Shown: positions 7,260-12,241 of the stretch, one piece after another
Layout: the number at the start of each line of letters is the position of its first letter
Position numbering within the stretch: the stretch's first letter is position 1
Source: Methanohalophilus levihalophilus
GTDB lineage: Archaea; Halobacteriota; Methanosarcinia; Methanosarcinales; Methanosarcinaceae
Length of the DNA stretch: 64,000 nt
Direction of reading: 5' to 3'
NCBI RefSeq assembly: GCF_017874375.1
Contig: NZ_JAGGLK010000002.1
Location: 620,001 to 684,000 of the forward strand
Made by a program: the position numbers and the translations under genes
The notes under the pieces: model-generated
Database searches by the model: none
Seen by the model: the letters and a program-made list of their open reading frames with translations, nothing else
What the model was told of the DNA's origin: nothing

Positions 7260-9293
7260 ATGGCCACTCAAAACAGGCTTGCCGGGGAAAGCAGCCCTTA
7301 TCTCCGGCAGCATGCTAACAATCCTGTAGACTGGTATCCGTGGTCTGATGAGGCGTTTGAGAAAGCCCTGAGTCTGGATATTCCTGTTTTCCTTTCAATA
7401 GGATATTCCTCCTGTCATTGGTGTCATGTGATGGCCGAGGAATCCTTTGAGGATAAGAAAGTTGCAGCTCTGCTGAATTCCCATTTTATTTCAATAAAGG
7501 TGGATAGGGAAGAAAGGCCAGATGTTGATGATTTTTACATGGATGCATGTCAGGCAATGACCGGAAGGGGCGGCTGGCCTCTTACGATAATCATGACTCC
7601 TGAGCGGAAGCCATTCTACGCAGCTACTTATCTCCCGAAAGAAAACAGGTTTGGACAACTGGGTGTAATCGATTTACTAAATAAAGTTACCGAGCTATGG
7701 GAAAATCAGAGAGATGAGATTGAGGAGCAGGCAATGTCAACTCTTCCCGACAATCGTCCTAAAGTAAAAGGTGCACTTACTCCTGCTCTATTTGATCAAA
7801 CATACTCGATGCTTCTGGGAACCTTTGACTGGAGAAACGGCGGCTTTGGCCCGGCCCCCAAATTCCCATCCCCCTCCCTGCTGTTATTCCTGCTCCAATA
7901 CTATGAAATAATGGATTCGGATCGCGCCCTTGAGCTGGTTGAGAAAACCCTTTCCTCTATGGCAGATGGGGGGATATTCGACCATCTGGGGGGTGGTTTC
8001 CACCGCTATTCCACCGACAGTGAATGGGATATCCCGCATTTTGAGAAAATGCTCTATGATCAGGCAATGCTGACCATTTCCTACCTGCAAGCGTATCAGG
8101 CGACTGAAACTGCTGAATACAAAGCTGTCGCTGAAGAAGTTCTGGCTTATTCCATGTCATCCCTGCAACACCCGGAAGGTGCATTTTATTGCGCCGAAGA
8201 TGCCGATGTCAATGGGGAGGAAGGTATCTTCTATTTGTGGTCAGTAGAAGAAATAGAAGAAATTCTTGGAAAAGCCGATACTTCACTTTTCTTCAGGCAT
8301 TTCAAACTTGTTCCGGTGCCCGGAAGTCAGGGCCCTCAGTCAAATGCTCTGAGAAAAATTACTGGCCAAAACGGCAACATTGAGTCATCCGCTGAAACCA
8401 TTGAACAGCTTGCTGGGATGAGACAAAAGCTTTTTGAAAAAAGGGGGTTGCGGGATCATCCCGGCCTTGACGACAAAGTTCTCGCTGACTGGAATGGCAT
8501 GATGATAGCAGCCCTTTCAATAGCAGCCCGGGTTTGCGAAAACGATGATTACCTGAAGGAGGCAAAAAGAGCTGCTGACTTTGTCCGGGAAAACATGTTT
8601 GGTGAGAAGGGATTGACTCACAACTTCCATGAAAGTGGTAAAAGTGTGGAAGGGTTCCTTGACGATTATGCATTCTTTGCATGGGGAATGACTGAACTGT
8701 ATGAATCGACTCTTGATGTTACCTATCTCAAAACCGCTGTTGACTTGATGGAAGAAGCTATCAATCGTTTCTGGGATGAAGAAGAGGGAGGATTCTTCTT
8801 CACTTCATCAGCCTCCCATGAGCTACCTCAGAGGACCAAGAAAGTGTTTGACGGGGCTTATCCCAGCGGAAATTCCATGTGTGTCTACAACCTTTTCAGG
8901 TTGTTCCATATAACCGGGAACAGCAGATTCAGGAAATATGCAGAAGATACCCTCCTGAGCTTTTCAGATATGATCCTGCGATCTCCTCCTTCATATTCCT
9001 TTATGATTACGGGATTCGGTATGGGGATTTACGGGAAACATGTTGTGATTGTGGGGGAGAAGGGTGAAGAAGACGCACAGAAGCTTCTGGATACAGTCCA
9101 ATCAGGCTTTCGTCCTGTTGCCGTGTACATGCTAAAGGATCAGGCTTCATCGTCCATTCTTGAAGAAATTGCACCATACACAAAGGACATGCAAAAAATT
9201 GAAGGAAAGGCCACAGCCTATGTTTGCCATGAGGGAAGCTGCAGCCCGCCGGTGACTGACCCAGCTGAGCTGGAGCGGTTGTTGGGTGAGTGA
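7260..9293 (+). CDS. Thioredoxin-fold DUF255 protein (YyaL/SPATA20 family)
   Basis: A 677-residue soluble protein. The N-terminal thioredoxin-like domain has the hallmark [11 protein letters not shown] segment and a CHWC pair (Cys52, Cys55). The remainder is an (alpha/alpha)6 barrel resembling N-acylglucosamine 2-epimerases and glycosidases, with a C-terminal Cys pair near CHEGSCSPP. The length matches the family. The biochemical role is not settled. It starts 6 bases after korB with GAGG before the ATG, so it is probably cotranscribed. The second CxxC-like site suggests a redox-linked function. Confidence 0.9.
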
Positions 9294-9345
9294 CGAAGAA
9301 ATCATATTTTTTAGAAACATTGTTTCGATCCAGGCGTACTTTGTA

Positions 9346-9379
9346 GTTTATATGCGATGACAATGTACTTTTCAAAGTA
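9346..9379 (+). promoter_or_regulatory. Promoter and palindromic operator of the first WD40-like gene
   Basis: A TATA box (GTTTATATG, 9346-9354) is followed by the palindrome TACTTTTCAAAGTA (9366-9379), which covers the predicted transcript start. The same 14 bases occur at the same distance from TATA box and ATG in front of the paralogous gene at 10867. This arrangement suits a repressor site. Confidence 0.6.
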
Positions 9380-9407
9380 TTGAAGTTATTATCCGGCAGA
9401 CGTTACA

Positions 9408-10733
9408 ATGTAGCTCTTTAGCAAAATCTTCCTTATGGTTATTCTTACTTGTTTAGCTTCATCAGGAGTTCTTCTAGGGCAGGCTTCAGATGCACCTCAA
9501 CCCGTTCTAGTTTCATACAACTATGAAAGAACAGTAAATGCAATAGATCATTCTCCTGATGATAGATATATTGCAGTAGGTCTTGCAGGAGGCTATGTCA
9601 GGGTTTGGGATATTGTTGAGGGAGAAGATATTTTTGATCCTGTCGGATTATATGAAAAAGATAGGATGATGCAGCTTCTTTCAAAAGAACCGTATGATAT
9701 TACAGATATTGAATTCTCTCCAAACGGAAAGTATCTACTTGTGAGTTCGTCAGAATATGACTATCTAAATAACGAATTTATCGGTTCACGTTTGGTAGTA
9801 TATGATGTTGACAACTGGGAAGTTGTACGAGCCCATGATATGGACAGTACAAAGGTGTGGGATGTCGCTTTTTCTCCTGACAGTAATACTTATGCAAGTC
9901 CTTTTAAAATGGATAATGGGAATGGAAATGATCATTCTACTATAGCGTTGTGGGATACAAAAACAGGTGAAGTTTCTCAAAACTTCATAAGTAATAATTA
10001 TGAACCATATTCAATTGCATTTACTCCCGATGGGAATTTCCTTGTTGTTAGTTTCATAAATAACATTGACTCAGATAGGATAGTTTTTTTTGATTTAAAC
10101 AACGGGGAAATAGAAAAAACAATCAAGCATCAATCAGTTTCAGACTTGCAGTTTTCTGATGATGGGTCCTTTTTTGTTGGAGGAAGCGATCGCTATGATG
10201 AAGCAATTGCTTGGAATACTTCATCTGGTGAAGAATTGTATCGTTTCAAGGGCTTTTCTTCTCCCCCAGATGGTATTTCCTTATCCACAAAAGGAGATTT
10301 CTTGGTCGGTGTTGACAACCGAAAAGTGATGGTTTGGAATGTAACTTCGAAACAACTATTAATGGATTCGTTTATCGATTCTGACATCCGCAATTCAAAA
10401 TGCGTTGATTTCTCTTCAGATGATTCTTACATTGCAGTTGGAGCAAGGGTGGCTGATGATTCGGACTACAAAATAAACAACTCTCTTTATTCAAGAGCCA
10501 TCCAAAGTGGTGCTGATTCTCGGCAACTAAAAAGCCGATTTTCACATGGAGATGGCATGGTATTTGTTTACGATTTTCAAGAGATAAGTCAAAGAGGGCA
10601 TTTCAACAAATTTTTAGGCATTGTAAGGGAGTCGCAGCTTAAATCGATTTATGAGTTTTTTGATTTTGGCAAATATGCTATTTTTGCTCTTGCTCTGGTT
10701 ATCATTGTTGCTAGAAAACTGAAAAAGAAATGA
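9408..10733 (+). CDS. Exported WD40-like beta-propeller protein, copy 1, with in-frame TAG at codon 2
   Basis: Signal peptide, repeats of the type FSPDGKYL / WDTKTGEV forming a beta-propeller, and a single C-terminal membrane helix with KKK at the inside end; it should be anchored outside the cell. It is a tandem paralogue of the next gene (10867). The ATG at 9408 aligns with the start of that gene, is the same 28 bases from the shared operator, and gives a signal peptide with the same spacing, but codon 2 is TAG (9411-9413). If TAG is read as pyrrolysine the protein is about 441 residues. Otherwise translation must begin at ATG 9435, leaving a short signal peptide with no basic residues and no visible ribosome-binding site. 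AT-rich compared with its neighbours. Function unknown; such propellers usually bind proteins or polysaccharides. Confidence 0.8.
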
Positions 10734-10805
10734 GGCTTTGTGAAAGCTGTTTTGCCCACAAAGTAGCAATTAGGAATTATGTTTCGCTCTCTTAATCACC
10801 TGAAG

Positions 10806-10838
10806 TATATATACAATGCAGGTGTACTTTTCAAAGTA
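10806..10838 (+). promoter_or_regulatory. Promoter and palindromic operator of the second WD40-like gene
   Basis: The TATA box TATATATA (10806-10813) is followed by TACTTTTCAAAGTA (10825-10838), a perfect 6+6 palindrome with a TC spacer identical to that before copy 1. The distance to the ATG is also the same. Confidence 0.6.
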
Positions 10839-10866
10839 TTAACTTTAGATGTAGGTAGATATTACA

Positions 10867-12159
10867 ATGTCTGACTTTCGCAAATTTCTTTTTACTACTC
10901 TACTCACTTGTTTGGTTCTATCAGGAGTTTTGTTAGGAGAAGCTTCAGATAAACTGGAGCCAATCCAAATTTCATACAATTATGGGGGCAGTCTCAAAAC
11001 CATTGACTATTCTTCTGACGGTAGACATATTGCAGCAGGATATGGGGCTGAATTTACTGAGGGCCATGTGATGCTCTGGGATACAATTGAAGGAAAGCCG
11101 CTATCCTTTACTCCAGAGTTACTTGAGCAAGACAGGTTAATGGAATTGCTTGGGACTGAACCATATGGGGTTAAGGAAGTAGTATTTTCTCCAGATGGTA
11201 AATACTTGCTATCTTGTTCTTCTCGTTTTAATTCTCTTGAAGATGAACTTCTAGGAACACATTTAACGCTATATGATGTGGAAAGTAGGAATGTTGTTCG
11301 AACCCATGATTTGCCAGAATCATATGCATGGGAGGTTGCTTTTTCTCCGGATGGGGAAACTTATGCTGCGTTATATGAGATGGATCAAGAATCGGAAACC
11401 TCCACAATCTATCTGTGGGATGTAGAAACCGGGAAAGTTGCCAACACTATTTCAAGTAATAATTTTGGAGCTATTTCCCTTGCTTTTAGTCCGGATGGAG
11501 AACAACTTGTTGTAAGTTTTCTGAATCACAAAAATCCCGATAGGATAGTCTTTTTTGATCTTGAAAGTGGAAATTCAGAAAAAATAATCGAAGAGCAATC
11601 TGTTGCTGATCTCGAATTTTCTGCAGATGGAAGTGTGCTTGCAGCCCGCAGTCGCCACTATGACGAAGCAATTGTCTGGGATTCCACTTCCGGTGAAGAG
11701 TTGCATCGGATAATCAATTTTGGACATCCGGAGGACATCGCTCTTTCAGGAGATGGGAAATATTTAGTTGGTGTTGGGATGAGGCTGATGGCATGGAACA
11801 TCTCTTCGCAAAAAAAGCTGCTGGATATTTGGGATCGCGATCAACTTGAAGGTTACAATAGCATCGATTTTTCTGATGACAACAACTATGTGGCAGTTGG
11901 TGTAGATTTAGAGGAGGATTCAAAATATGGGATAGGTGGAGAAGCTTGGAGAGAAGCTTTTGGAACATCTGCATTTTACAGTGAAGTACCATTTTTAAAA
12001 GGTTCTATTTTCATCTATGATTTTCAGGATATAAAAGAAAATGAACACCATACAAGCTTGAAAGATCTGCCTGAGATGATTCCTCAAAATATTTTGTTTA
12101 TTCTGCTTGGATTGTCGTTCGTAATTATTTTGTTAGTAGGAAAACGGTTTAAACATTAA
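10867..12159 (+). CDS. Exported WD40-like beta-propeller protein, copy 2
   Basis: A 430-residue paralogue of the preceding gene, colinear along its whole length. It has an N-terminal signal peptide (basic FRKF, then a hydrophobic stretch ending near GEASD), propeller repeats with FSPDG and LWD/VWD turns, and a C-terminal membrane helix (about residues 406-426) followed by KRFKH. The start is the ATG at 10867 with codon 2 TCT, where copy 1 has TAG. The duplication includes the promoter. The function is unknown. Confidence 0.88.
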   Translation: MSDFRKFLFTTLLTCLVLSGVLLGEASDKLEPIQISYNYGGSLKTIDYSSDGRHIAAGYGAEFTEGHVMLWDTIEGKPLSFTPELLEQDRLMELLGTEPYGVKEVVFSPDGKYLLSCSSRFNSLEDELLGTHLTLYDVESRNVVRTHDLPESYAWEVAFSPDGETYAALYEMDQESETSTIYLWDVETGKVANTISSNNFGAISLAFSPDGEQLVVSFLNHKNPDRIVFFDLESGNSEKIIEEQSVADLEFSADGSVLAARSRHYDEAIVWDSTSGEELHRIINFGHPEDIALSGDGKYLVGVGMRLMAWNISSQKKLLDIWDRDQLEGYNSIDFSDDNNYVAVGVDLEEDSKYGIGGEAWREAFGTSAFYSEVPFLKGSIFIYDFQDIKENEHHTSLKDLPEMIPQNILFILLGLSFVIILLVGKRFKH

Positions 12160-12196
12160 TCTAACAGTTTGAAAACCAACTCAAAATGTAGAAAAG

Positions 12197-12221
12197 GGGG
12201 TAATGATGCATGTATTACCCC
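12197..12221. terminator. Hairpin between convergent genes
   Basis: GGGGTAAT (12197-12204) pairs with ATTACCCC (12214-12221). On the minus strand it is followed by CTTTTC, so it may end transcripts of the Fe-S protein gene or serve both convergent genes. Confidence 0.5.
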
Positions 12222-12241
12222 AAATTAGTACAACTCGGTTT

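Follow-up and report, generated by a model that had tools for sequence, protein, structure and literature searches.

Within the 64,000-nucleotide stretch of the Methanohalophilus levihalophilus genome analyzed here (the window), the first of two tandem WD40-type genes (copy A, 9408..10733, plus strand) contains an in-frame TAG as its second codon (9411..9413, plus strand). Given the recoding machinery in the genome, we treat this TAG as a candidate pyrrolysine codon, and we consider it probable that copy A is a functional gene and that translation inserts pyrrolysine at this UAG, inside what is predicted to be a signal peptide. According to this proposal, the codon would be decoded by tRNA-Pyl(CUA) charged by PylS, and it would have arisen, probably later than the tandem duplication, in a genome that uses UAG mainly as a sense codon. 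The pyrrolysine would lie in the n-region of the predicted secretion signal and would be removed on export. Because the residue is inside the predicted signal peptide and would be lost with it, the substitution is probably neutral and would have no catalytic role. From the lines of evidence set out below, we infer that translation initiates at 9408, that pyrrolysine is incorporated, that the signal peptide is cleaved, and that the substitution is neutral.

Pyrrolysine machinery and UAG usage in the genome

The pyl genes on which the earlier note had made its proposal depend are present: tRNA-Pyl(CUA), PylS, PylB, PylC, and PylD are encoded in one cluster of the 2.1-Mb genome (GC content 43%, as determined in a 476-kb sample). 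The tRNA-Pyl, with anticodon CUA, was located with ARAGORN (L005:7622-7693, minus strand) and is 93% identical to a Methanosarcina pylT sequence. PylS, PylB, PylC, and PylD are full-length, and all score above the curated NCBIfam cut-offs. The pylB gene (L005:5244-6299, minus strand) itself ends with TAG just before the start of pylC; if it were read through, the protein would be extended by 39 residues in an overlap with pylC, and this TAG looks terminal. A pylB gene ending in TAG has also been reported for M. mazei, M. acetivorans, and M. burtonii (PMC2933860).

The usage of TAG was assessed in the same 476-kb sample, which was taken as stretches and represents about 22% of the genome. TAG terminates 8 of 373 non-overlapping open reading frames of at least 150 amino acids (2.1%), although 17% of the stop triplets counted over all frames are TAG. 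Among these eight reading frames are mttB, PEP synthase, a calcium-binding-type repeat protein, and a predicted lipoprotein, in each of which the TAG is interior. In mttB, the match to TIGR02369 spans the TAG. The PEP synthase gene (L024:15208-17616, minus strand; G000 contig C1) consists of 450 codons, the TAG (codon 451), and a further 351 coding codons; when read through, it gives a full-length match to TIGR01418, and it is the sole full-length copy in the genome. In the congeners, at 84-87% identity, codon 451 is ACG or ACC (Thr). In the repeat protein gene (L020:777-1973) and the lipoprotein gene (L033:14184 onward), coding sequence flanks the TAG on either side. Further, an HD-domain gene (L028:12081-13745) has an in-frame TAG and reads through, and the congeners have GAT, GAA, or ACA at this codon. 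An in-frame TAG is also found in the YyaL-type thioredoxin-domain gene of one congener (G007, L048:1489-3513), a gene whose orthologue in the present genome immediately precedes the WD40 pair; the other congeners have CAG or CAA, and the TAG is one substitution away from CAG.

Because the coding sequence is intact and conserved on both sides of these interior TAGs, we infer that they are translated. Overall, the complete pyl set, the rarity of TAG as a terminal codon, and its occurrence inside ordinary genes indicate that UAG is mostly a sense codon in this genome, and pyrrolysine is therefore to be expected at codon 2 of copy A if the ribosome starts at 9408. A recent paper reportedly describes archaea in which all TAG codons are read as pyrrolysine. 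In M. acetivorans, an amber codon in a reporter acted mostly as a stop, with 20-30% readthrough (PMC2933860), and a UAG at codon 2 should thus cost expression; lower or substrate-dependent expression of copy A may be a side effect of the codon.

Choice between the start codons at 9408 and 9435

The DNA at 9408 reads ATG TAG CTC TTT AGC AAA ATC TTC CTT ATG, in the same frame as 9435-10733, and the start of copy B at 10867 reads ATG TCT GAC TTT CGC AAA. The sequence confirms the difference between ATG TAG CTC and ATG TCT GAC to which the earlier note had drawn attention: codon 2 of the paralogue is a sense codon (TCT), and upstream of the TAG in copy A there is only the ATG. The gapless alignment that had been claimed for the two signal sequences (27 residues to GQAS/GEAS) holds and in fact starts already at a TATA-like box. 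The leaders of both copies, each on the plus strand, consist of a TATA-like box followed by a palindromic element at equal spacing. The boxes, identified from the sequence as TTTATATG in copy A (9347..9354; a putative promoter element) and TATATATA in copy B (10806..10813), each start 61 nt before the respective ATG (9408 and 10867). The palindromic element TGTACTTTTCAAAGTATT (core TACTTT-TC-AAAGTA), a putative operator of copy A at 9364..9381, recurs in copy B at 10823..10840 and ends 26 nt before each ATG, consistent with the equal ATG-to-operator distance noted previously. An exact-match search of the whole genome for the 18-base element returned these two sites only, and looser matches in the genome were not in excess over a reversed-pattern control.

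As a result of this alignment, the ATG at 9408..9410 (plus strand) is homologous to the start codon of the paralogue, which is the sole plausible start of that gene. Within the family, the closest relative (G035, 31-32% identity) begins normally, with no TAG, ∼25 residues before the equivalent point, and the paralogue and the G035 homologue each have a full-length signal sequence of similar length. If translation starts at 9408 and the TAG is read, the protein keeps a full signal sequence, as had been claimed, and its hydrophobic core is preceded by a lysine, as in the paralogue. On the sequence evidence, homology of this ATG to the paralogue's start is the point at 9408 that chance does not account for. 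The hexamer ATGTAG occurs 27 times in the window compared with 22.5 expected, which is not above chance, and an in-frame ATG-TAG just upstream of a gene was found in 3 of ∼363 sampled genes (∼1%). The paralogue is one of these three: it has an in-frame ATG TAG at window positions 10849-10854, 18 nt ahead of the start codon, probably by chance.

We considered the possibility that copy A starts instead at the ATG at 9435..9437 (plus strand), with the ATG-TAG at 9408 as the relic of a former start and with the short signal sequence MVILTCLASSGVLLGQAS at the N terminus. This is unlikely on balance, and it is the alternative that we take most seriously. Under standard decoding, the reading frame from 9435 is intact and comprises 432 codons, and an upstream in-frame ATG-TAG is expected by chance at the ∼1% of genes given above. 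The 432-residue product has no lysine or arginine before its hydrophobic stretch, as the earlier note had stated. In a sample of signal-like N termini, however, 14 of 57 (about a quarter) also had no lysine or arginine before the core, so this feature does not disqualify the 9435 product. The product nevertheless contains no 10-residue stretch passing the hydrophobicity rule applied, and the 9435 ATG is, as claimed, not homologous to the paralogue's start, the equivalent triplet in the paralogue being ACT. Moreover, in this organism, a ribosome that initiated at 9408 would frequently decode the UAG.

The ribosome-binding sites do not separate the two starts. The upstream match to the anti-Shine-Dalgarno sequence amounts to −2.8 kcal/mol for ATG 9408, −0.8 kcal/mol for ATG 9435, and −5.9 kcal/mol for the paralogue; a ribosome-binding site is absent from both 9408 and 9435, and the paralogue has a modest one. 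The earlier argument that 9435 lacks such a site is correct, and its match is weaker still, but the argument applies equally to 9408. The value of −2.8 kcal/mol is close to the median of random sites, and we also rejected the strength of the match as support for 9408.

The start region itself was compared between the copies. Codons 2-9 match at 14 of 24 bases and the leader just upstream at 14 of 26; because the segment is conserved about as well as the leader, it gives no separate sign of being translated. The second positions of codons 4-9 are identical in all six codons, which is no more than suggestive with so few sites, and the coding bias of codons 3-9 of copy A (−0.4 bits) does not discriminate. 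No stable RNA structure of the PYLIS type follows the UAG (fold z-score +0.49 compared with shuffles); a PYLIS is not essential (PMC2933860). In sum, the earlier proposal of pyrrolysine at codon 2 stands with respect to the pyl machinery and the use of UAG as a sense codon elsewhere, but initiation at 9408 is favored by neither a ribosome-binding site, nor an orthologue, nor extra conservation.

Integrity and genomic context of the WD40-type pair

Read through the TAG, copy A encodes a WD40-type β-propeller protein of 441 residues with an N-terminal signal peptide, a C-terminal membrane helix, and a basic tail, and the coding score is positive only in this frame. Copy B (10867..12159, plus strand) encodes a tandem paralogue of 430 residues with 44% protein identity to copy A. 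The WD40-like identity given in the earlier note is borne out by Pfam, in which copy A matches WD40/β-propeller models only; copy B likewise matches such models (Pfam and NCBIfam). Models of MtmB, MtbB, and MttB matched neither copy A (Pfam) nor copy B (Pfam and NCBIfam). Each of the two proteins begins with a signal sequence, ends in a hydrophobic segment with a basic tail, and is probably surface-anchored.

A comparison of codon 2 among close relatives, as envisaged earlier, did not materialize, as the seven congeners contain no orthologue. The closest matches in the genome collection were distant bacterial WD40 proteins only, and a search of the viral collection for homologues returned none. 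In two congeners (G003 and G007), a convergent 4Fe-4S gene lies only a few bases beyond the YyaL gene, whereas in the present genome the two are separated by a 2.9-kb segment carrying the WD40-type pair (window positions 9294-12241). Because the congeners have no homologue and the flanking genes are adjacent in G003 and G007, the pair is most simply explained as a species-specific insertion. The YyaL gene of this genome (window positions 7260-9293) has ∼55% identity to its congeners, compared with ∼86% for PEP synthase, which may reflect either unusually fast change or replacement by transfer.

It appears improbable that copy A represents a duplicate in decay or one that has been switched off, or that the TAG is a sequencing error. 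Such a reading would fit the position of the TAG in a duplicate confined to one species and an anti-Shine-Dalgarno match weaker than that of copy B. Against it, the remaining 432 codons of copy A are open, compared with 25 and 46 stops in the other two frames, the two copies have about equal coding bias (25.0 bits for copy A and 26.6 bits for copy B), and no further damage was seen. Still more remote is the idea that AUG-UAG is a start-stop switch through which the availability of pyrrolysine would control how much of a surface protein is made or where it is located, such that codon 2 would be passed and exported protein made when charged tRNA-Pyl is present (growth on methylamines), and translation would otherwise terminate after one methionine, with possible re-initiation at AUG 9435 to yield a protein whose signal sequence is poor.

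Comparison with known pyrrolysine-containing proteins

If pyrrolysine is incorporated at codon 2 of copy A, it would directly follow the initiator methionine, which would demonstrate that tRNA-Pyl is able to compete with release factor at the first elongation step. The UAG would add to the evidence that this codon is an ordinary sense codon in some methylotrophic methanogens and drifts into genes unrelated to methylamines, and gene callers would assign wrong starts to, or split, genes that contain it. The biologically stronger case in this genome is PEP synthase, a central enzyme seemingly dependent on pyrrolysine.

Interrupted reading frames with a start just upstream of the UAG have been described, and short upstream parts are likelier to arise by chance (Have et al. 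2013, PMC3639795). Copy A has this layout, but its upstream ATG is homologous to the genuine start of the paralogue. As in the methylamine methyltransferases MtmB, MtbB, and MttB, the UAG of copy A would be read by the same tRNA-Pyl and PylS; in those enzymes, however, pyrrolysine is catalytic and its codon conserved, whereas the UAG of copy A is an isolated case lacking a conserved function. A closer parallel is the tRNA-His guanylyltransferase Thg1 of M. acetivorans, which, in the account of Heinemann 2009 given in PMC2933860, contains a non-essential in-frame UAG. As in Thg1 so described, the UAG of copy A would have been gained in one species of a pyrrolysine-encoding methanogen, and the gene concerned has no connection with methylamines. 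For Thg1, that account reports that incorporation was tested and that the UAG position is not essential for activity, whereas the UAG of copy A is a candidate, at codon 2 and in a predicted signal peptide. Overall, the UAG of copy A is probably another example of an already known type of recoding.
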